Assembly (NCBI GenBank): GCA_002440625.1
Contig: DJUV01000247.1
Coordinates: 1 to 21,800, forward strand
DNA: 21,800 bases
Origin: Rhodobacteraceae bacterium UBA6273
Lineage (GTDB): Bacteria; Pseudomonadota; Alphaproteobacteria; Rhodobacterales; Rhodobacteraceae
Reading direction: 5' to 3'
Shown here: piece by piece, positions 1,399-21,043 of the stretch
How positions within the stretch are numbered: the stretch's first letter is position 1
Layout of the letters: every line of letters starts with the position of its first letter
The notes under the pieces: model-generated
The model's database searches: none
What the model saw: only the letters and a program-made list of their open reading frames with translations
Told to the model about the DNA's origin: nothing
Program-made: the position numbers and the translations under genes

Positions 1399-2454
1399 AT
1401 GGCGCTGACCCTGACCTCTCTCACCGAACACGCCGAACTTGGTTTCGACGCGATCATCGACGTCCGCTCGCCATCGGAGTTCGCCGAGGATCACCTGCCC
1501 GGCGCCATCAGCCTGCCGGTTCTCGACGATGAGGAACGCGCAAGGATCGGCACGATCTACAAGCAGCAGTCGCCCTTCCTTGCCCGCAAGATCGGCGCGG
1601 CGCTTGTCGCGCGGAATGCCGCGCGCCATCTCGAAGGGCCGCTGGCGGAGATGCCGGGCGGCTGGCGTCCCCTAGTCTATTGCTGGCGCGGCGGCCAGCG
1701 CTCCGGCTCCTTCGCGACGATCCTGTCGCAGGTCGGCTGGCGGGTGGAACTGGTCGCGGGCGGCTACAAGGCCTGGCGGTCGCTGGTCGTCGCGGCCCTG
1801 AACGAACCGCCCGCCGCGCCGGTCATCGTCCTTGACGGCAATACCGGCTCGGCCAAGACCGAGTTGCTCGGCCTTCTCGGCCAGCGCGGGGTCCAGGTGC
1901 TTGACCTTGAGGGACTCGCGAACCATCGCGGGTCGCTCTTCGGCCATATGCCGGGCGGGCAACCCGGCCAGAAGGCCTTCGAAGGCCGGATCGCCACGGC
2001 GCTCGCCGCGCTCGATCCGTCGCGCCCGCTGGTGGTGGAGGCGGAAAGCTCGCGCATCGGCAACCTCGCGCTACCCAAGGGCCTCTGGGCGGCGATGAGC
2101 ATCGCGCCGCGCGTGCATATCCGTGCCGAGTTACCCGCCCGCGCCAGCTACCTCTCGCGGGCCTATGCCGATCTTGGGGGCGATGCGGAGCGGCTTGCCG
2201 GGGTCATCGCGCTGCTGCGATCCCAGCATTCAGCCGAGGTCATCGACAACTGGCTGACGCTCTCCGCCACCGGCCAGACGGCAACGCTCGCCGCCGACCT
2301 GATGCAGCGCCACTACGATCCGCGCTATGAGAAACACCGCGCCCGCTTCACCCGCCCCGGCGATACCGAGGTCACGGCAGATGACTTGTCACCCGAGGCG
2401 CTCCCCGCTCTCGCCGACCGGATCGCCACCGTGCTGCCCGGCCTCGCCCCGTAG
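1399..2454 (+). CDS. mnmH: tRNA 2-selenouridine synthase MnmH (SelU/YbbB)
   Basis: The enzyme replaces sulfur by selenium in the wobble 2-thiouridine of certain tRNAs (via a geranylated intermediate in E. coli), using selenophosphate as donor. The product is 351 aa, the usual family length. An N-terminal rhodanese domain (about residues 10-125) carries the catalytic Cys95 in YCWRGGQRSGS. A C-terminal P-loop domain follows, with a Walker A motif GNTGSAKT at 147-154. It starts 41 bases after the L,D-transpeptidase stop; the ribosome site before the ATG is weak. It is convergent with selD, whose product makes its selenium donor, and the two genes are separated by a strong hairpin. This neighbourhood supports the call. 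No sign of damage is seen. Confidence 0.95.
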   Translation: MALTLTSLTEHAELGFDAIIDVRSPSEFAEDHLPGAISLPVLDDEERARIGTIYKQQSPFLARKIGAALVARNAARHLEGPLAEMPGGWRPLVYCWRGGQRSGSFATILSQVGWRVELVAGGYKAWRSLVVAALNEPPAAPVIVLDGNTGSAKTELLGLLGQRGVQVLDLEGLANHRGSLFGHMPGGQPGQKAFEGRIATALAALDPSRPLVVEAESSRIGNLALPKGLWAAMSIAPRVHIRAELPARASYLSRAYADLGGDAERLAGVIALLRSQHSAEVIDNWLTLSATGQTATLAADLMQRHYDPRYEKHRARFTRPGDTEVTADDLSPEALPALADRIATVLPGLAP

Positions 2455-2498: not shown

Positions 2499-4676
2499 TC
2501 AATTCTCCACCGTCAGGAACGGCGCGCCCTCTTCCACCGCGCCGATGATCGCCGCCGCCTCGCCCGCGTCCCGCAGCCGGGCGACGATGTCGCGGGCGTG
2601 AGAGGCCGGGACCGCCGCAAGAAGCCCGCCCGAGGTCTGCGGATCGAAGAGAAGCTCCGCCCTCGGGCTTTCGGTCCAGAACATCCGCGCCGCCGCCGCC
2701 CGGTTGGCGGGCAGGATCGTCGATCCGTGGCCGGAGGCCGACAGCGCCTCGGCCCCCGGCAAAAGCGGCACGAAGGTCAGGTCGATATGCGCGGCGGCGC
2801 GCGAGGCGGTCATCATCTCCAGAAGATGCCCGGCAAGGCCGAAGCCGGTCACATCGGTCATCGCATGGGCGTGCGGCGAAAGGATGCGCGCCGCAGCCCC
2901 TTGCGGCCGCGCCATCGAGCGAAGGCAGGCCGCCACCACCTCGCCCGGCGCCGCGCGGAGCATCTCGGCGGCAAGGATCACGCCGGTGCCGATGGGCTTC
3001 GTCAGGATCAGCCAGTCGCCGGGCTTGGCGCCAGCGAGCGTGATCGGCGCATTGGCGGCAAGGCCGGTCACGGTGAAGCCCACCGTCATCTCCGCCCCCA
3101 TCGTCGTGTGGCCGCCGACGATCTCCGCCCCTTCGGCGGCAAAGACCTCGGCCGCCGCGGCCATGATCTCGCGCAGGGTCTCGCGTTGCAGCTTCGGCGC
3201 CATGCGCGGCAGGATCACCTGCGACAGCGCCGCCTGTGGCCGCGCGCCCATCGACCAGACATCGCCCAGCGCATGGATCGCGGTGATCCGCGACAAGAGC
3301 CAGGGGTCGTCGGTGAAGGCGCGGAGGTGATCGGTGGTCAGCACCTGATAGCCCTTGCCCGCCGCCAACACCGCCGCATCATCCCCGGCCCCGAGAAGCA
3401 CATCCGCCCGCCCGACGCGCGGCAGATCGGCGAGGACCGAGGCGAGATCGCCAAAGCCAACCTTGGCGCCGCAGCCCGCGCACAGCGGCTTGTCGCCAAG
3501 CGTTTCGCGCACGCCGGCCGCCATCGTCTCGGGCAGTTTCGGCGCCTCCATCACGGGCAGATTGCTGAACTTCGCCATGAAGGCGCGGTCGATCCGGTCC
3601 TTCCAGCGCCAGAGCGCCGGGCCGTCGAGCCTCAGCCCCCATTTGTCGGCGACAGCGGCCCTGTGGCCGGTGGAGATCAGCTTCAGGTAATCGCTCTGCG
3701 GATGGTAGGGCCGCATCTGGCCCTGCCCGGTCAGCGCCGCTTTCAGGTTCTCATGCAGGACCGGCGCCTGCCGCACGGCAAAGACGCCGGCCTTGGGACG
3801 CGGCGCATGGGCCATGGCCGCGACGTCCCCGCTGGCGAAGATCGCAGGATCGGCCACGGATTGCAGCGTCTCGCCGATGGTGACGAAACCGTCCACATCG
3901 GCAAGGCCGGTCCCTGCCAGCCACGGCGCCGGCCTCGTCCCCGCCGCGCCGATGATGAAATCCGCCGCCACCTGACGGCCATCGGCCAAGGTCACGCCAA
4001 GGGCATTCGCCTCGACCACCGGCAACCCGGCCAGAAGCGCCACATCGGCACGCTCAAGATGCGCGAAAAGCGCCCGTCGCGCGCCCTTGCCGAGAAGTGC
4101 GAGCGGCGCCCCCGCCTCGATCACCGCAACCTGCGCGCCCTCGCCCAGCCGGTACTTGGCGGCGAGCGCCAGTTCCACCCCGGCCACGCCGCCGCCGATC
4201 ACCGTGACGGTGGGCGCGCGCCTGCCGGCCCTCACCTCGCGCAGGAACCGTGCCCAGCGCGCGGCGAAGACGTCGAGCGGTTTCGCCGGCACCGCATGGT
4301 CGGCAAAGCCCGGCAGGTCCGGCATCCCCGACGAAATCCCGATGTCGAGGGAGGCCAGGTCATAGGCCACATCCGCCCGCCCCGGCACGATCACCCTTTG
4401 CGCCTGCCGGTCGATCCCCTCGGCATGGCCAAGGATCAGCCGCGCCCCGGCGAAACGGGCGAGTTTCACGAGGTCGATCTCCAGCGCCTCGCGCGGATAA
4501 TGCCCGGCGACATGGCCCGGCAGCATCCCCGAATAGGCCGCCGTCGGCTCCGGGCTGATGAGCGTCAGCCGCGCGCCCGGCAGGGGCGCCATCCCCCACA
4601 TCCGCAAGAGAAGCGCATGGGTATGCCCGCCCCCGATCAGGACCAGATCGCGCGTGAGTGGGATCGCTGCCTGCAT
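2499..4676 (-). CDS. selD: Selenide, water dikinase SelD fused to an N-terminal NAD(P)/FAD oxidoreductase domain
   Basis: SelD makes selenophosphate from selenide and ATP. The product (725 aa) is about twice the length of E. coli SelD because of a flavoprotein-like N-terminal half. Residues about 9-380 are a pyridine-nucleotide-disulfide oxidoreductase (NDH-2-like), with GGGHTH at 15-20, a second Rossmann motif VIGGGVAGVELA at 159-170, and the FAD-type ASGD at 281-284. Residues about 395-725 are the SelD domain. Cys402 and Lys405 in AGCGAK correspond to the essential Cys17 and Lys20 of E. coli, and GAGDDAAV follows at 429. Cys, not selenocysteine, is used. The ATG at 4676 is chosen because GGAGG lies 9 bases upstream; the frame is open further up to 4796, but that stretch has no matching domain and would overlap the next gene's start. 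This fusion is a known SelD architecture. The oxidoreductase may feed reduced selenium to the kinase, which is inference. Confidence 0.95.
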   Translation of the reverse strand: MQAAIPLTRDLVLIGGGHTHALLLRMWGMAPLPGARLTLISPEPTAAYSGMLPGHVAGHYPREALEIDLVKLARFAGARLILGHAEGIDRQAQRVIVPGRADVAYDLASLDIGISSGMPDLPGFADHAVPAKPLDVFAARWARFLREVRAGRRAPTVTVIGGGVAGVELALAAKYRLGEGAQVAVIEAGAPLALLGKGARRALFAHLERADVALLAGLPVVEANALGVTLADGRQVAADFIIGAAGTRPAPWLAGTGLADVDGFVTIGETLQSVADPAIFASGDVAAMAHAPRPKAGVFAVRQAPVLHENLKAALTGQGQMRPYHPQSDYLKLISTGHRAAVADKWGLRLDGPALWRWKDRIDRAFMAKFSNLPVMEAPKLPETMAAGVRETLGDKPLCAGCGAKVGFGDLASVLADLPRVGRADVLLGAGDDAAVLAAGKGYQVLTTDHLRAFTDDPWLLSRITAIHALGDVWSMGARPQAALSQVILPRMAPKLQRETLREIMAAAAEVFAAEGAEIVGGHTTMGAEMTVGFTVTGLAANAPITLAGAKPGDWLILTKPIGTGVILAAEMLRAAPGEVVAACLRSMARPQGAAARILSPHAHAMTDVTGFGLAGHLLEMMTASRAAAHIDLTFVPLLPGAEALSASGHGSTILPANRAAAARMFWTESPRAELLFDPQTSGGLLAAVPASHARDIVARLRDAGEAAAIIGAVEEGAPFLTVEN

Positions 4677-4794
4677 CCGCCCATTCCTCCCCGCCCTCTT
4701 CGTAGCGGCTCGCTTCGGCTTTGGCGATGCCCGGCCTTGGCCGCAGCACCTGATCGCGCTAAGGATCGGCCTCGCGGTAACGGAGAGGGGCGTC

Positions 4795-5805
4795 ATGCGG
4801 GTCTATATCAGCGGCGCGGCGGGGTTCATCGGCTATCACCTCGCCCGGATTCTCCTCGACGAAGGCATGACCGTGCGCGGGATGGACGGCATGACGGATT
4901 ACTATGACGTCAGCCTGAAGCGCGGCCGCCTCGCCGGGCTGATGCAGCATCCGAATTTCAGCTTCGCCGAATTCATGCTTGAAGATGCCAGCCGGCTTGC
5001 CAAGGACATCGCCGATTTCCGCCCCGATGCGGTCGTCCACCTCGCCGCACAGGCCGGGGTGCGCTACAGCCTTGAAGCGCCGCGCAGCTACCTGTCGTCC
5101 AACATCGACGGCACCTTCAACATCATGGAGGCGGCGCGCGATGCCAGTGTCGGCCACCTCCTCCTCGCCTCGACCTCCTCGGTCTACGGCGCCAATACCG
5201 CGATGCCGTATCGCGAGACCGACAAGTGCGACACCCAGGTCTCGCTCTATGCCGCGACCAAGAAGGCGACCGAGAGCCTCAGCCATTCCTGGGCGCATCT
5301 CTGGGGCCTGCCCGTTACCTGCTTCCGGTTCTTCACCGTCTACGGGCCGTGGGGCCGGCCCGACATGGCGCCGTTCAAGTTCACCAAGGCGATCCTCGCC
5401 GGCGATACCATCGACGTCTATGGCCATGGCAAGATGTTCCGCGACTTCACCTATGTCACCGACCTTGTCCGCGCGATCCGGCTGCTGATCGACACGCCGC
5501 CGGTGCGCCCCGCCAGCCCCGAAGACATTGCCGAGGGCGACAGCCTGTCGCCCGTCGCCGCATGGCGCGTGGTGAACATCGGCAATGGCGAGAAGGTGGC
5601 GCTTGAGGATTTCATCGCCGCCATCGAGGCGGCGACCGGCAAGAAGGCCAGGAAGCACTACATGGAGATGCAGAAGGGCGACGTGCCTGCGACCTGGGCC
5701 GACAATGCGCTTCTCCGCCGCCTGACCGGCTACCGGCCCGAAACCGGCATCGTCAAGGGCATGGCCGCGACCGTCGACTGGTACCGTGACTACTATCGCG
5801 TCTGA
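4795..5805 (+). CDS. UDP-glucuronate 4-epimerase-like NAD-dependent SDR (CapI/LspL type)
   Basis: This 336-aa protein is an extended short-chain dehydrogenase. It has the NAD-binding GAAGFIG at residues 7-13, the STSSVYG strand at 126-132, and the catalytic pair Tyr152/Lys156 in YAATK. The segments DYYDVSLKRGRL (36-47), AAQAGVRYSLE and RFFTVYGPWGRPDMA are characteristic of the UDP-GlcA 4-epimerase/CapI group, which makes UDP-galacturonate for surface polysaccharides. The ATG at 4795 is chosen because GGAGAGG lies 6 bases upstream; the frame remains open further up, but that part is antisense to selD. The gene is divergent from selD with about 118 bases between starts, and no other polysaccharide gene is nearby. 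The substrate is therefore inferred from sequence alone; a related UDP-hexose epimerase is the alternative. Confidence 0.88.
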   Translation: MRVYISGAAGFIGYHLARILLDEGMTVRGMDGMTDYYDVSLKRGRLAGLMQHPNFSFAEFMLEDASRLAKDIADFRPDAVVHLAAQAGVRYSLEAPRSYLSSNIDGTFNIMEAARDASVGHLLLASTSSVYGANTAMPYRETDKCDTQVSLYAATKKATESLSHSWAHLWGLPVTCFRFFTVYGPWGRPDMAPFKFTKAILAGDTIDVYGHGKMFRDFTYVTDLVRAIRLLIDTPPVRPASPEDIAEGDSLSPVAAWRVVNIGNGEKVALEDFIAAIEAATGKKARKHYMEMQKGDVPATWADNALLRRLTGYRPETGIVKGMAATVDWYRDYYRV

Positions 5806-5868: not shown

Positions 5869-5936
5869 GCTCAGCTGGTTAGAGCGCGCGACTCATAATC
5901 GCGAGGTCGAGGGTTCGAGTCCCTCCCTCGCCACCA
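5860..5936 (+). tRNA. tRNA-Met (anticodon CAU, elongator type)
   Basis: The gene folds as a 77-base cloverleaf with encoded CCA. The D arm is GCTC...GAGC, the anticodon stem CGCGA/TCGCG has the loop CTCATAA (anticodon CAT), the T arm is GAGGG TTCGAGT CCCTC, and the acceptor strands are GGCTAGG and CCTCGCC. The start GGCTAGGTAGCTCAG is close to E. coli elongator tRNA-Met, which favours that over the lysidine-modified tRNA-Ile(CAU), though the anticodon alone does not separate them. One acceptor pair is broken: T4 (5863) faces C69 (5929). A G at position 4 would restore pairing. The 3' half overlaps the end of aqpS on the other strand. Confidence 0.93.
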
Positions 5937-6591
5937 CTTCCCTCAAGAGCCAGCGCATGACTGCGTATGCCAAAACCGCACCTGCAATTTCCGCCGCGAC
6001 AAAGGCCGGCACATCCGCCGGACGGATGCCGGCGAAAGTGTCGCTGAAGGCTCGCGCGACGGCCACCGCCGGATTGGCGAAGCTGGTCGAGGCGGTGAAC
6101 CAGTAGGCCGCCGTGATATAAAGGCCCACCAGCACCGGCACCGCATCGGGCCGCGCGCGCAACCCGCCAAGAATCGTGGCGACAAGGCCGAAGGTCGCGA
6201 CCGCTTCGGCCAGCCACTGGCCGGTGCCGGTCCGCACGGTGGAGGACAGCTGCCAGACCGGCAGGTCGAACATCAGATGCGCCAGAAGGCAGCCAGCGAT
6301 GCCGCCCACTACCTGCGCCGCCGCATATCCCAAGGCCAGTCCCGGACCGATCTCCCCCCTCAGCGCGAAGACCATGCTGACGGCTGGGTTGAAATGCGCG
6401 CCCGACAGCGGGCCGAGGATGGTTATGAGGACGACAAGCACCGCCCCCGTCGCCAGCGTATTGGCCAGAAGCGAAACGGCATCATCGGTGGACAGCGCAT
6501 CAGCCATGATGCCAGACCCGACGACTGTCGCCACCAGAAGCCCGGTGCCCAGCGCCTCGGCTACAAGGCGGCGCGCGGGGTCAGCGGTCAT
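5893..6591 (-). CDS. aqpS: Aquaglyceroporin-like channel of the arsenic operon (AqpS type)
   Basis: This 232-aa membrane protein belongs to the MIP (aquaporin) family. It has about six membrane spans and two pore half-helices carrying NPA boxes at residues 68-70 (HFNPAVS) and 173-175 (FANPAVAVAR, with the pore arginine at 180). In Sinorhizobium meliloti, AqpS replaces an arsenite pump and lets arsenite made by ArsC leave down its gradient; the same role is inferred here from the operon. The ATG at 6591 lies inside the arsC end (ATGACCGCTGA, 11-base overlap) with GAGGGG upstream; a GTG at 6603 is less likely. Residues 219-232 and the stop codon are encoded in the antisense of tRNA-Met, so the tail, including GLEPSTSRL, is probably a fortuitous extension. 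The channel itself looks complete. Confidence 0.9.
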   Translation of the reverse strand: MTADPARRLVAEALGTGLLVATVVGSGIMADALSTDDAVSLLANTLATGAVLVVLITILGPLSGAHFNPAVSMVFALRGEIGPGLALGYAAAQVVGGIAGCLLAHLMFDLPVWQLSSTVRTGTGQWLAEAVATFGLVATILGGLRARPDAVPVLVGLYITAAYWFTASTSFANPAVAVARAFSDTFAGIRPADVPAFVAAEIAGAVLAYAVMRWLLREVVAREGLEPSTSRL

Positions 6592-7084
6592 CCTGCCCCT
6601 CACCGATGGCCTTGAGGTGACTGTGCAGGGCCATGCCGTCGATCGAATTCAACGGCAGGTTCACGAAGGCCGCGATCCGGTTCGACAGCGCCCGGTAGGC
6701 TTCGGCAAAGGCGAGGCCGCGCTCCGCCTCGTTGCCTTCGGCCGCCGCCGGATCGGGGATGCCCCAATGCGCGGTCATCGGATGGCCGGGCCAGAACGGA
6801 CATTCCTCGCCAGCGGCGGAATCGCAGACCGTGAAGATGAAATCCATCTGTGGCGCTTCCGGCCCGGCAAACTCGTCCCAGCTTTTCGACCGGGCGAAGG
6901 CGGTGTCGTGGCCTTCCCGTTCCAGAAGCGCGATGGCCAGCGGGTTCGGCTTGCCCGTGGGCCGCGACCCGGCGGAAAAGGCGCGGAACCGTCCAGCGCC
7001 TTCGCGGTTCAGGATGGCCTCCGCCAATATCGACCGGGCGGAATTGCCCGTGCAGAGGAACAGCACGTTATAGGGTGTCGTCAT
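6581..7084 (-). CDS. arsC: Arsenate reductase, low-molecular-weight phosphatase family (ArsC)
   Basis: This 167-aa protein should reduce arsenate to arsenite in the cytoplasm. It has the LMW-phosphatase P-loop CTGNSARS with nucleophile Cys11, and the acid Asp111 in a DPAAAEG loop. Two further cysteines, Cys87 (TVCDSA) and Cys95 (EECPFWPG), sit where the redox pair of thioredoxin-coupled ArsC enzymes lies. Three cysteines argue for arsenate reduction rather than a protein-tyrosine phosphatase. The ATG at 7084 follows the arsR stop by 3 bases, and the 3' end overlaps aqpS by 11 bases, so the three genes are one translationally coupled operon. The length is normal and nothing looks broken. Confidence 0.93.
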   Translation of the reverse strand: MTTPYNVLFLCTGNSARSILAEAILNREGAGRFRAFSAGSRPTGKPNPLAIALLEREGHDTAFARSKSWDEFAGPEAPQMDFIFTVCDSAAGEECPFWPGHPMTAHWGIPDPAAAEGNEAERGLAFAEAYRALSNRIAAFVNLPLNSIDGMALHSHLKAIGEGQDDR

Positions 7085-7087
7085 CGC

Positions 7088-7426
7088 TCAGTCTCCACAA
7101 GCGCAGGCCACGGCCTCGATCACCGGCTGACAAAGTTCAGGCCGGCCGCCGCAGCAATCCTCCATCAGATAGGCAAGAAGCCCGCGCATCCCCTCCATGT
7201 CCGCGAAGTAGCGGACGGCCCGCCCCTCGCGCCGGTTTCTGACCAGCCCGGCAGAATGCAGGATCGTCAGATTGGCCGACATGGTGTTCTGCCGTACCTC
7301 AAGCGCCGCCCCGATCTCACCCGCCAGCATGCCGTCGGCGCCCGCTTTCACCAGCAACCGAAAGACGTCGAGGCGTGTGTCCTGGCCGAGCGCCGAGAGG
7401 GCCGTGAGGCTGCGATTCCTGTCCAT
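7088..7426 (-). CDS. arsR: ArsR/SmtB-type arsenite-responsive repressor
   Basis: This 112-aa winged-helix regulator should repress arsR-arsC-aqpS until arsenite binds. The recognition region LEVRQNTMSANLTILHSAGLVRNRREGRAVRYF is typical of the family. It lacks the classical CxC-type metal site in the recognition helix. Instead the C-terminus holds Cys91, Cys92 and Cys99 in EDCCGGRPELC, plus Cys108 and Cys110 in ACACGD. From memory this resembles the C-terminal arsenite site of Acidithiobacillus ferrooxidans ArsR. The ATG at 7426 is chosen because the protein aligns from there and 8-bp repeats lie just upstream; GTG at 7441 in the same frame would add five residues. The ribosome site is poor for either start. 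Confidence 0.9.
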   Translation of the reverse strand: MDRNRSLTALSALGQDTRLDVFRLLVKAGADGMLAGEIGAALEVRQNTMSANLTILHSAGLVRNRREGRAVRYFADMEGMRGLLAYLMEDCCGGRPELCQPVIEAVACACGD

Positions 7427-7433
7427 ATATCCA

Positions 7434-7457
7434 GATTTCACGATTTATTGATTTATT
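7434..7457 (-). promoter_or_regulatory. AT-rich repeat upstream of arsR, candidate ArsR operator
   Basis: Three 8-bp units in tandem, GATTTCAC-GATTTATT-GATTTATT on the + strand, lie 8 to 31 bases before the arsR ATG. This patch is strikingly AT-rich against its surroundings. Autoregulated ArsR proteins bind next to their own start, so an operator or promoter is likely here. I see direct rather than clear inverted symmetry. The exact -35/-10 boxes are uncertain. Confidence 0.45.
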
Positions 7458-7852: not shown

Positions 7853-10189
7853 TCACGGCGCGACCTCCGTCGCGAAGCGCAGGAGGCTGGCGAGCGCCTC
7901 GCGTGCCAGTCCCGTCTCGGCAACGAGACCGCGACCGGCTTCGAGTTCACCCTCGTCTCCTTTACTGGCAACCGCCGGTGCCGGCGCAGGGGCGAGCGTC
8001 TTCAACGCCTCGGCCACACCGTCCGGCGCCGCTGCCGCTCCGCTCCGCCGGCCCCCCGCAAGCCACGCCGCGCGCGCGGCACCTGCGGCGTCGCCCGACC
8101 CGGAAAGTTCGGCTTCGGCCTTCTGCGGTTGGTTCTGCCTGAGGTAAGCCTCGGCCCGCAGCGCCGCGGCCTCGGAGCTTTCCGCCCCGGCAAGCGCGTC
8201 GAGCGCTGCCGCTGCGTCGCCGTCATCAAGCGCGCTCCGGGCGAGAATCAGCTTGCCGCGCCCGGTCGCGGCAGCCTCGCCTTTCAAGAGCGCCTTCGCT
8301 TCCGCGCCAAGTCCCGCGCCCGCCAGCCGTTCTGCCATATCAAGTCGCAGCAGCACGTCGGGATCAAATCGCAAGATCCGGTCTCGTTCCCGGTAGTAGT
8401 GGTTGAGAAGAGTCCAGTCGTCGCCTTTTCGGGCGAGCATTGCGAAAAGGCTGAGAAGCACCTCCTGCGCCAGGGGCTCGGGGAAGGCCTCCTGCCACCG
8501 CGCTTCCTCGCTGAAGGCGGAACCGAAGTCGCCGGTCGAGGCCAGCGACAGGATCTGCAGGACTGCAAGCTCCGGCCCCTTCTTTTCGTGACGGAATTCA
8601 GAGGCAAGTGCAGCCGCGCTTTCGGCGAGCGCGGGCGGCACCGCCTCATCGCGATCGAGACGCAGGCGGATGGCGCGGGACAAAGCTTCGGACGCTGCCG
8701 GACTGCCGCCCGTGGCGATTGTGTCGAGGCTCTCTTCGGCCGAGGCCGCATCGCCGCCGGCTTTGGCGAGGTCGGCACTGGCAATCTCCAGTTCCGGGTC
8801 AGCGGCCATGCCCGTGCGCAGAACGGCCGCGCGCGCGGCATGGGCGGCATCGGCGTCCCCCACGGCGATCAGGCGCTCCATCAGTTCAGGTCCCAGCAGA
8901 CGGCGCAGATGGGCCGGAAGCGCGGAAAAGGCACCAAGGACGGCGGCGCTATTGATGTCGTTGCGGGCGCGTGGTTCGCGGGTTTCGAGAAGCGCCCAAA
9001 GCGCAACCGCGCCATCGCAGCTGGTGAAACCATTGAGCGTTGCAGGGGCTTTCTCCTCCCCGTCGACGATGGCCGCGAGCGTGCGGAGCCAGGGCGCATC
9101 CGCCTCGCCGACGACGAAGGCGTCAAGCGTCGCCCGCGCCTCTGCGCCGAAGCCCAGATGGATGTAGAGCCGGGCCAGCGCCACGACCTTGTCATGGTCC
9201 GGCTTGTCGAACTCTCCCACCAGACCCTGTCGACGCTCAGCGAGCTGATATGCCGCTGGCGTTTCGTCGCCCCAATCGGCGGGGGCGAAGGCGGAGTCCT
9301 CCGGGCAGGACCGGCCCTCGGCGGAGAGCGCGGCGTCGATTTCCGGGAAGCCAGAGTCGCGGTCGACGCTGGTTTCGACATGCAAGGGCAGGCCCGGATC
9401 GTCCTGCGGCGTTGTAACGGCGGGCGCGCGGTTCTCCGTCCCTGATGCCGCAACGGGTTCTGGCGCCGGATCGGGGAGTGGCGGGGTGTCGAAGGTGATG
9501 ATCCCCTGCGCCGCCGCGCGTCCCAGTTGTTCGGCCAGTGCCTTGCGGATTTCATCGGCCCGGGAATCGGCGGGCACGAATGCAGCGGCTGCCGGCGGAG
9601 GCGTAGGGTCCGGGCGCTGGTCGCCGGAACCGGGCGGAAAAGCGGCGACTGGCGCCGCGCCCTTTTGCCAGTAGACCGGCAGGTGAGGGTCGGCCACGGG
9701 CGGCGTGATCGACGCAGGCTGCCAAGGCGACAAGGCTAGGCCGGTGACTTGCTTGCCGGCTGCCACGACCTGATCGCCCGCACCACCGCCATCCGGGGCT
9801 TCGAACGGGCTGCCGGCGGGCGGGGCGCCATCCTTGACGTCGATCACCACCGCGCCGCCCGCCGTCTCAAAGGCCGCCACGTGGCAGTTGCAGGGAACGG
9901 CAAGATCAAGGATGCCGCCGTCGCGTGCACCGAGATCTGCGACCCTGCCGCGCGGGATCAGGTCGAACGCGCCAGAAATGTCGAAACTCGTCACCGCGTC
10001 GGCTGCGCGGAACACATAGCCGTCTCGCCCTCGCGTCACGCTCCAGCCCGCTTGCGCCGTTCCCTCAAGGACGATGCGGGTAAAGCCCGGGTGTTCGCCG
10101 GACCTGACGCGCACCACCTCGGCGCGAAGCGGCAACGCATAGAAGAGCATGAGGGCGATTGTCGCAAAGATCGGGAAGGACAATCTCAT
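7853..10189 (-). CDS. Exported 778-aa solenoid protein coupled to motA; candidate periplasmic motor protein
   Basis: I do not recognise a named family. A classical signal peptide (residues 1-23, cut after LRA) is followed by a beta-rich segment (about 24-121, starting VVRVRSGEHPGFTRIVLEG) that resembles AMIN-like domains. A proline/alanine-rich linker spans about 122-290. A long helical, TPR-like repeat region fills about 300-778, rich in alanine and charged helices such as LARLYIHLGFGAEA. There are only four cysteines (100, 102, 295, 391), suited to disulfides in the periplasm. The start overlaps the motA stop (ATGA), so the two are translationally coupled. A MotE-like gene lies just upstream in the same unit. 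The context makes a role in stator assembly or torque generation likely, possibly equivalent to rhizobial MotC. That role is inference; the coding call is firm. Confidence 0.85.
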   Translation of the reverse strand: MRLSFPIFATIALMLFYALPLRAEVVRVRSGEHPGFTRIVLEGTAQAGWSVTRGRDGYVFRAADAVTSFDISGAFDLIPRGRVADLGARDGGILDLAVPCNCHVAAFETAGGAVVIDVKDGAPPAGSPFEAPDGGGAGDQVVAAGKQVTGLALSPWQPASITPPVADPHLPVYWQKGAAPVAAFPPGSGDQRPDPTPPPAAAAFVPADSRADEIRKALAEQLGRAAAQGIITFDTPPLPDPAPEPVAASGTENRAPAVTTPQDDPGLPLHVETSVDRDSGFPEIDAALSAEGRSCPEDSAFAPADWGDETPAAYQLAERRQGLVGEFDKPDHDKVVALARLYIHLGFGAEARATLDAFVVGEADAPWLRTLAAIVDGEEKAPATLNGFTSCDGAVALWALLETREPRARNDINSAAVLGAFSALPAHLRRLLGPELMERLIAVGDADAAHAARAAVLRTGMAADPELEIASADLAKAGGDAASAEESLDTIATGGSPAASEALSRAIRLRLDRDEAVPPALAESAAALASEFRHEKKGPELAVLQILSLASTGDFGSAFSEEARWQEAFPEPLAQEVLLSLFAMLARKGDDWTLLNHYYRERDRILRFDPDVLLRLDMAERLAGAGLGAEAKALLKGEAAATGRGKLILARSALDDGDAAAALDALAGAESSEAAALRAEAYLRQNQPQKAEAELSGSGDAAGAARAAWLAGGRRSGAAAAPDGVAEALKTLAPAPAPAVASKGDEGELEAGRGLVAETGLAREALASLLRFATEVAP

Positions 10190-11055
10190 GCCGCGTCCGA
10201 CTTCACGGATTTCAACGCTTCCTCAAGGGCGGAAAAGCTTGGCCGCATGTGGTGGGGGGTGTTCTGCCGGCCAACCTCGATGCAGAGATTTGCCTGGTGG
10301 TTGTGCAGATTCGCCACCAGAACCTCGCGGATGAGGGCATAGAAGTGGCCATCCTCCTCGACCACGGTCTTCAGCTTGGCCGCGAAGGGGCCGACAATCC
10401 CGTAGGCGAGGAAAACCCCAAGGAAGGTGCCGACGAGCGCGCCGCCGATCATCTTGCCGAGGATCTCCGGCGGCTGGTCGATGGAACCCATGGTCTTGAT
10501 GACGCCGAGCACCGCCGCGACGATGCCGAGCGCCGGCAAACCGTCCGCGACCGACTGCAGCGCATGCATCGAATGGAGCGAATGATGCAGGCTCGCGTCC
10601 AGCTGCTTGTCGAGCACCTCTTCGACCTGGTGCGGATCATCGTAGTTCATCGAAGCCGAGCGCAGCGTGTCGCAGATCAGGTCGACCGCTGCATGATCCG
10701 CGGCGATCTTGGGGTACTTCCCGAAGATCGAAGAGGTGTCCGGCGCCTCGACATGCTGTTCGATCGCGACCGGATTGCTTCGGGCGAGACGGATCAGTTC
10801 GAACAGGAGGCAGAGGAGGTCGCGGTAATCGTCCGGTTTCCATTTCGGTCCCTTGAAGACCTTGCCGATGTCCTTCAGCGTCTTCTTGATGGTGGCGCCG
10901 TCATTGGAGACCACGAAGGCGCCGACCGCCGCGCCACCGATCATGATCATCTCGAACGGCAGCGATTTCATGATGATGCCAAGCTTTCCGCCGGCGGCGA
11001 CATAGCCGCCAAAGACCATCACGAAGATGATGACGATTCCAATGATGCCGACCAT
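10186..11055 (-). CDS. motA: Flagellar motor stator protein MotA
   Basis: MotA forms, with MotB, the proton-conducting stator in the inner membrane. The product is 289 aa, near the E. coli length. It has four membrane segments: two near the N-terminus (about 2-22 and 33-51) and two in the C-terminal half (about 173-192 and 202-222). A charged cytoplasmic loop lies between them (LLFELIRLARSN). The conserved prolines Pro174 (ADGLPALGIV) and Pro223 (GIVGPFA) match E. coli Pro173 and Pro222. The ATG at 11055 follows a 68-base gap after the motE-like gene. The 3' end overlaps the next gene by ATGA. motB is not adjacent; it lies 10 kb away in another unit. Confidence 0.97.
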   Translation of the reverse strand: MVGIIGIVIIFVMVFGGYVAAGGKLGIIMKSLPFEMIMIGGAAVGAFVVSNDGATIKKTLKDIGKVFKGPKWKPDDYRDLLCLLFELIRLARSNPVAIEQHVEAPDTSSIFGKYPKIAADHAAVDLICDTLRSASMNYDDPHQVEEVLDKQLDASLHHSLHSMHALQSVADGLPALGIVAAVLGVIKTMGSIDQPPEILGKMIGGALVGTFLGVFLAYGIVGPFAAKLKTVVEEDGHFYALIREVLVANLHNHQANLCIEVGRQNTPHHMRPSFSALEEALKSVKSDAA

Positions 11056-11123
11056 GACTGCCTCGGTTTGTTCGTGACCCGATCAGCTATCCGCTGCTCC
11101 GGTTAAGATTTTCGCTTCGCCGA

Positions 11124-11699
11124 TCAGGACTTCGGTGCCGCGGCATTGCGACCGGCGAACTGGACGCTGATCGCGTAGGCCACCTTCGGGTCGAGCCCGG
11201 CCATGACCGCGGCGGCCGCTTCGGGCCGCATTCGTGACAGGAACCCGGCCGCGAAATCCGGCGCCATTTCACCGAAAAGTGCTGCGGCATCCTTCGGTTT
11301 CATCCGCTCATAGACGGCGACGAGTCGCGCCACGTCCTTTTCGGCGGCCTGATCGGCCTGCTCGATGGTGGCGGCGAGTTTCTGTTCGGCGGCCTCTAGG
11401 CTGGCGATCCGCTTTTCGGCTTCGCTTCCGGCGAGTGCGACAGCCTTTTCGCGCGCCGCGATCCCGTCTTCGCGCGCCGTGAGCCTCCTGTCGCGCTCCT
11501 TCAGATCGTCGAACAATGCCCTCGTCGCCGCATCTCCATCGGTACAAGCTGCCGTTTCCGCGGGGACCGCTTCGGCCGTCGCCGCGTCAAGGGCATGTCC
11601 CGCCGTCAGCCCGGCGCGCAGAAGACCCGAGGACGCGAGGAGCAGGAAGAGGACGGACAAGGCCCGCCTCCGCAGCCGAGGGGAGGAGGACGGGTTCAT
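11124..11699 (-). CDS. MotE-like flagellar protein (MgtE N-domain-like C-terminus)
   Basis: This 191-aa protein has a basic N-terminus and one hydrophobic segment (about 13-30, signal or anchor). A charged coiled coil follows (about 61-125, e.g. LKERDRRLTAREDGIAAREK). The C-terminal domain (about 130-181) carries YERMKPKDAAALFGEM and later MAGLDPKVAYAI. That C-terminal pattern is typical of MotE, which in S. meliloti is the chaperone of periplasmic MotC. It overlaps the coiled-coil gene upstream by ATGA and precedes motA by 68 bases, which fits a stator-linked role. Whether it is a chaperone here is inference. MgtE transporters share the domain but are far longer. Confidence 0.82.
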   Translation of the reverse strand: MNPSSSPRLRRRALSVLFLLLASSGLLRAGLTAGHALDAATAEAVPAETAACTDGDAATRALFDDLKERDRRLTAREDGIAAREKAVALAGSEAEKRIASLEAAEQKLAATIEQADQAAEKDVARLVAVYERMKPKDAAALFGEMAPDFAAGFLSRMRPEAAAAVMAGLDPKVAYAISVQFAGRNAAAPKS

Positions 11700-12061
11700 G
11701 CCGCTTCCTCCCCCGAAAGCGACCCGTCCGCGCGCCGGCGCAGCACCCGTCGCCGCAAGGGCGCGGAGTCTGCCGGCTCGGGAAGGTCGTGCATCGTGGC
11801 AAGCAGAAGTTCAAGCCGGGCAGCGGCGGCTTCGGCACGTTCGGTCATTCCGGCAAGCGACTGCGTCGATTCCTGTGCCGCGGCGCGGGCATGGGCCAGC
11901 GCGCGGGTCATGTCGTCGACCTGCACCGAAAGCACCGCCACAGCGCCACCTATGCCGTTTTCAAGCTGGCTGAAGACGCTCAGCCGCCGCGACAGCACGT
12001 GACAATAGACGGCCACGCCCAGTGCGCCTGCCCCCAGAAGAATATCGGCGATTAGTTCCAT
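11696..12061 (-). CDS. Small membrane-anchored coiled-coil protein of the flagellar locus
   Basis: This 121-aa protein has one N-terminal membrane helix (about residues 3-22), then a heptad-rich helix (about 30-95, e.g. QVDDMTRALAHARAAAQEST). It ends in a short basic tail with RRRVLRRR. From memory it resembles proteins annotated as DUF6468 in alphaproteobacterial flagellar clusters; this was not checked. It sits 12 bases after fliL and overlaps the motE-like start by ATGA, so it is made with the stator proteins. No function is known to me. A partner of FliL or the stator at the membrane is a reasonable guess. Confidence 0.75.
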   Translation of the reverse strand: MELIADILLGAGALGVAVYCHVLSRRLSVFSQLENGIGGAVAVLSVQVDDMTRALAHARAAAQESTQSLAGMTERAEAAAARLELLLATMHDLPEPADSAPLRRRVLRRRADGSLSGEEAA

Positions 12062-12604: not shown

Positions 12605-12619
12605 CTAACCGATTGTTAA
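12605..12619. promoter_or_regulatory. CtrA-like box in the fliL/fliF divergent promoter region
   Basis: CTAA (12605-12608), seven bases, then TTAA (12616-12619) fits the CtrA consensus TTAA-N7-TTAA with one mismatch. It lies 54 bases before fliF and 45 before fliL, in a 114-base divergent spacer. The response regulator CtrA controls flagellar genes in many alphaproteobacteria, including Rhodobacterales. Binding here is inferred, not shown. Confidence 0.55.
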
Positions 12620-21027: not shown

Positions 21028-21043
21028 TTAAGATTGCCCTAAC
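21028..21043. promoter_or_regulatory. CtrA-like box between motB and flgE
   Basis: TTAA (21028-21031), seven bases, then CTAAC (21039-21043) matches TTAA-N7-TTAAC with one mismatch. It overlaps the motB stop codon and lies 57 bases before the flgE start, so it could drive the flgE-flgK-flgL-flgI unit separately from motB. This is the same motif, with the same single-base deviation, as in the fliL/fliF spacer. Binding is inferred. Confidence 0.5.

Follow-up and report, generated by a model that had tools for sequence, protein, structure and literature searches.

What is the exported protein that is encoded directly after the stator gene motA in Rhodobacteraceae bacterium UBA6273, and what does it contribute to the flagellar motor? 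We followed this question in a 21,800-nucleotide stretch of the genome (assembly GCA_002440625.1, contig DJUV01000247.1, positions 1 to 21,800), here called the window, in which a protein of 778 amino acids (aa) is encoded by the last gene of a minus-strand unit in the order fliL-pflI-motE-motA-motK. We conclude with high confidence that this protein is MotK and works like the MotK of Cereibacter sphaeroides; the gene family is not new, motK having been named in 2024, with its partners and phenotype already published. A preliminary description made from the sequence had pictured a periplasmic stator accessory of Rhodobacterales that partners MotE in the place of MotC, a view that agrees with what experiments showed for MotK of C. 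sphaeroides, of which the window protein is a homologue encoded in the same operon.

The motK gene and its operon

The window protein and a 652-aa C. sphaeroides protein (P0235) align over 622 aa with 33% of residues identical (E 7e-67). We took P0235 to be C. sphaeroides MotK by its organism name and its length, which is the value given in PMC10954123, and not by accession; its source label, 'serine/threonine-protein kinase', looks like a misannotation. For the Fla2 system of C. sphaeroides, Velez-Gonzalez et al. (2024; PMC10954123) describe a five-gene operon, fliL-pflI-motE-motA-motK, whose MotE and MotK are both periplasmic, with either mutant flagellated but paralysed. The same paper reports that MotE, MotK and MotB2 bind one another in vitro, that the polar focus of MotK-sfGFP requires MotA2 and MotB2, that MotE is severely reduced without MotK and MotK is stable without MotE, and that MotC has no homologue in C. 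sphaeroides. Carried over from C. sphaeroides, these properties suggest that the window MotK is periplasmic, would bind MotE and MotB and would be needed for rotation.

The two proteins have in common the operon, an AMIN plus tetratricopeptide repeat (TPR) architecture, a signal sequence, a CtrA site before fliL (predicted here) and four mature cysteines at matching places; they differ in length, the window protein having a longer linker and C-terminal solenoid. Its open reading frame (ORF) runs from a signal-like N-terminus through an AMIN-fold domain and a disordered Pro/Ala linker to the TPR solenoid, with four cysteines, all as the preliminary description had listed them; the coupling to motA and the MotE-like gene in the unit were likewise read correctly, the motK ATG and the motA stop overlapping by 4 base pairs (bp). 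The AMIN-fold N-terminal domain and the TPR-like helical region that mark a MotK-type protein are both present. The features of the window that bear on the argument are as follows.

7853..10189, minus strand: motK, 778-aa exported AMIN-linker-TPR protein, assigned by homology to P0235 and synteny
9800..10126, minus strand: AMIN-fold domain of MotK, residues 22-130, from structure-model comparison
7868..9307, minus strand: TPR solenoid and C-terminal helix of MotK, about residues 295-774, including the invariant C295 and C391, from alignment and models
10186..11055, minus strand: motA (stator), sharing 4 bp with motK; Pfam MotA_N 9.7e-38, NCBIfam MotA1 369 bits, above cut-off
11124..11699, minus strand: motE (MotE/FlgY/FlbB group), single Cys52; MgtE_N 8.1e-06, with a weak FlbB match below cut-off
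11696..12061, minus strand: pflI (DUF6468); Pfam 6.3e-07, operon position as in PMC10954123
12074..12559, minus strand: fliL; Pfam FliL 3.9e-15
12605..12619, no strand: predicted CtrA-like box between fliL and fliF, with one mismatch to the CtrA consensus TTAA-N7-TTAA
21039..21797, minus strand: motB, its start at the window edge; MotB_plug and OmpA, the sole motB match in the genome assembly (85% complete)

Beyond the CtrA-like box, fliF, fliH, fliN and fliP are oppositely oriented, starting from 12674. The window holds two such boxes with one mismatch, against 0.2 expected; the other, at 21028-21042, overlaps the motB stop and lies upstream of a flgE-like gene. In 72 of 74 related loci the gap between fliL and fliF contains a predicted box with no more than one mismatch, where base shuffles would lead one to expect 1.8. 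The ORF downstream of motB matches FlgE models best, so it is flgE-like and not motC.

Distribution with flagella and MotE

Related loci were collected with a profile (A1) built from 24 homologues, with which named genomes were searched, and the best 80 of 248 relatives were kept. The five genes stand in the order fliL-pflI-motE-motA-motK in 74 of these 80 loci, and 5 of the other 6 are cut by contig ends; a motK start codon, ATG or GTG, falls at the same 4-bp overlap in 69 of the 78 loci that have motA. In one locus (L011, 7084-10292), motA and motK are joined by a 4-bp overlap apart from fliL, pflI and motE, which were not found in that locus.

A sample of 196 genomes was drawn from the order Rhodobacterales, every listed one belonging to the window's own family, Rhodobacteraceae; because these genomes are mutually related, Fisher values are not true probabilities, and our conclusions are not based on them. 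MotK was found in 146, FlgI, our marker for flagella, in 174 and MotE in 166. Equal presence in non-motile relatives, which the preliminary description had set against a motor role, is not what we see: MotK occurs in 145 of the 174 FlgI-positive genomes and in 1 of the 22 FlgI-negative ones (29 with FlgI only, 21 with neither), and this sole FlgI-negative genome (G010) has a match of only 6e-05. Co-occurrence of MotK with close MotE, defined as matches stronger than 1e-40, is near-complete: 144 genomes have both, 2 have MotK only, 2 have MotE only and 48 have neither. The cut was set after the values had been seen, in a gap between 1e-44 and 2.8e-26, and sets aside 20 genomes with weak MotE; when all 166 MotE-positive genomes are counted, the figures are 144, 2, 22 and 28. 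The abstract, introduction, results and discussion of PMC10954123 do not report this co-occurrence. The identification as MotK also attaches a function to a gene that, where the matches listed carry a name, is mostly called 'hypothetical protein' and once 'kinase'.

Of the two genomes with strong MotE and no MotK profile match, one (G110) encodes, directly after motA, a 701-aa protein that begins like an exported one (L083, 6208-8313, minus strand) and whose central part, both conserved cysteines included, matches MotK in profile comparison (96.6%, E 6.8e-10). The profile search missed this copy, and the count of 146 is therefore a lower bound. An AMIN profile gave no match on the 701-aa protein; a congener outside the sample encodes a 797-aa protein after motA (L090, 1252-3645) with a near-full-length MotK profile match (E 5.4e-34) and a diverged AMIN domain (AMIN profile E 4.9e-06), and the loss of AMIN in G110 therefore looks local. 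In the other genome (G140), motE is followed by an ORF for a LacI-family regulator. Of the 196 genomes, 20 combine weak MotE with the lack of a MotK match. In three genomes of one genus with divergent MotE (g7; L084, L085 and L086), the next large ORF after motA is flhA (Pfam FHIPEP), and no motK was found. A search near motB for a MotC-like partner covered 10 genomes and 11 loci, of which 8 loci, about 3 kilobases each, were inspected; in the g7 motB loci L096 and L099 the downstream gene is of hook/rod type with FlgE similarity, and no motC-like ORF was seen, while loci of this length are too short for a judgement on the others.

The cysteines are conserved to different degrees. C100, C102, C295 and C391 of the window MotK correspond to C98, C100, C243 and C339 of P0235, which has only two further cysteines, both within its signal region. 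The aligned MotK proteins, from the window and 76 of the 80 loci (L016, L030, L067 and L077, which lack motA or a closed ORF, were left out), all have C295 and C391 (77 of 77), and 53 of 77 have C100 and C102. C295 and C391 may form a disulfide. MotE keeps its single mature cysteine, residue 52, in 67 of 76 proteins (75 of the 80 loci and the window); in C. sphaeroides this cysteine forms a dimer disulfide, and PMC10954123 discusses cysteines for MotE, not for MotK, in the parts consulted. The invariant pair and the MotK-like protein with no detectable AMIN domain are possible additions to the published family.

Structure models and the role of MotK at the motor

Against Pfam and NCBIfam, the 778-aa protein matched no family above cut-off, and a MotK profile run against PDB sequences gave 9 weak matches, all to generic TPR, coatomer or designed proteins. 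With the full structure model, the top Foldseek match in the PDB library was 9hmf_K, a chain of the Campylobacter jejuni motor periplasmic scaffold (9HMF; E 4.8e-05). We presume this chain to be PflA, as its 773 residues fit the mature protein, and if it is, PflA is the top PDB match of MotK. Constructs described in PMC12222027 place the start of mature PflA near residue 16. For the N-terminal domain, VIA-align ranks AMIN domains top, with a fold like the peptidoglycan-binding domain of AmiC, which agrees with the AMIN-like domain of the preliminary description; by Foldseek, the best E-values (2.6e-03) go to small heat-shock proteins, most of which superpose at a high root-mean-square deviation (rmsd), and no match falls below 0.001. 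The MotK models have the order of AMIN domain, linker and TPR superhelix that defines the PflA type.

We propose that MotK would be produced along with MotA, be exported to the periplasm and act there with MotE and MotB so that the stator engages and the motor turns. In the likeliest mechanism, MotE would form a ring at the MS ring (the E-ring), on which MotK would sit as a spoke with its TPR end facing MotE, and its flexible linker and AMIN domain would extend outward to peptidoglycan and/or MotB, whereby stator units would be recruited or held open. We give the spoke geometry by itself, with TPR inward and AMIN outward, about an even chance. A fuller version, in which the Rhodobacterales motor would be a minimal form of the Campylobacter spoke-and-ring that does without PflB, with a MotE E-ring, MotK spokes whose AMIN ends meet MotB and the wall directly, a C295-C391 disulfide holding the spoke near the solenoid base and a few lineages keeping the spoke after AMIN loss, we offer tentatively, judging its chances a little short of even.

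Several results weigh against these conclusions. The identity to P0235 is only 33%, and the alignment ends near residue 627 save for a short, weak C-terminal piece. By profile, 29 of the 174 FlgI-positive genomes are without MotK, at least one of which holds a missed, diverged copy. The role proposed for UBA6273 is carried over from experiments made in C. sphaeroides. The 9hmf_K match has a global TM-score of only 0.15 and a very large rmsd, and therefore supports domain order more than shape. In VIA-align, the 50 rows shown for the full model are generic TPR proteins with no bacterial flagellar row among them, which is no evidence against a likeness of MotK to PflA.

MotK may instead be a peptidoglycan clamp rather than a spoke, its AMIN domain binding the wall, anchoring MotE and favouring open MotB, as in the model set out in PMC10954123. 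The AmiC-like fold and the dependence of the MotK focus on MotA2 and MotB2 fit this model, but AMIN-type folds also bind protein, as the AMIN end and linker of PflA wrap PflB (PMC11870540; PMC12222027), and one MotK-like protein, that of G110, shows no AMIN domain; we judge the clamp a real possibility with the chances leaning against it. Wall clamp and spoke may be the same thing viewed from the outer end. That the protein is a strict orthologue of Sinorhizobium meliloti MotC, encoded after motB and with MotE as its chaperone, is improbable: a review does describe MotC and MotK as exported, TPR-rich partners of MotE and suggests their homology despite great divergence, but the window motK follows motA, motB is followed by the flgE-like gene, PMC10954123 finds no MotC homologue in C. 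sphaeroides, and the dependence of MotE on MotK there is the reverse of that between MotC and MotE. The preliminary description had MotE as the chaperone of a client 778-aa protein, and this does not hold in C. sphaeroides; its chaperone reasoning found the right partner, though the dependency runs opposite. A general envelope TPR protein merely located in a flagellar operon, for which the lack of a Pfam or NCBIfam family might speak, is extremely improbable, already contradicted by the near-restriction to FlgI-positive genomes, the synteny of 74 of 80 loci and the paralysed motK mutant of C. sphaeroides (PMC10954123).

Other genes of the window lie apart from this argument. After motK, at 5893-7441 on the minus strand, are an HTH_20 (ArsR-like) regulator, a low-molecular-weight phosphatase/ArsC-like protein and an aquaporin-family gene, by domain content a possible arsenic resistance set. 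At 2499-4796 (minus strand), a 765-aa fusion of pyridine-nucleotide oxidoreductase and AIRS domains, presumably SelD-like, adjoins a rhodanese-like gene at 1399-2454 (plus strand), and the two are perhaps a selenium-related pair.

Comparison with MotC, CC_2058 and PflA

Like MotK, MotC of S. meliloti is a periplasmic, TPR-rich partner of MotE that is needed for rotation. Its gene follows motB, so that motK does not occupy the MotC-type position; the review assigns AMIN to MotK only, and MotE stabilises MotC, whereas MotK stabilises MotE. CC_2058 of Caulobacter crescentus also adjoins a motE-like gene and has an AMIN-like N-terminus and a reported Mot- mutant, but shows no BLAST similarity to MotK according to PMC10954123.

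A parallel in domain order is PflA of C. jejuni, which consists of an N-terminal beta-sandwich, an unstructured linker and 16 TPRs and forms radial spokes (PMC12222027); its beta-sandwich resembles the AMIN domains of PilQ (PMC11870540), and it shares with MotK the AMIN-like beta-sandwich, the unstructured linker and the TPR superhelix. The preprint PMC11870540 and a review, both of which follow homologues of FlgY and PflA through a range of phyla, group MotK with PflA. The two proteins have about 10% identity, and PflA works with the rim protein PflB. If the spoke reading is true, the E-ring of the Caulobacter basal body and the Campylobacter scaffold would be tied to alphaproteobacterial motors amenable to imaging. 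PflA pairs with the E-ring protein FlgY, a homologue of MotE, and the window likewise encodes a motE gene beside motA and motK.

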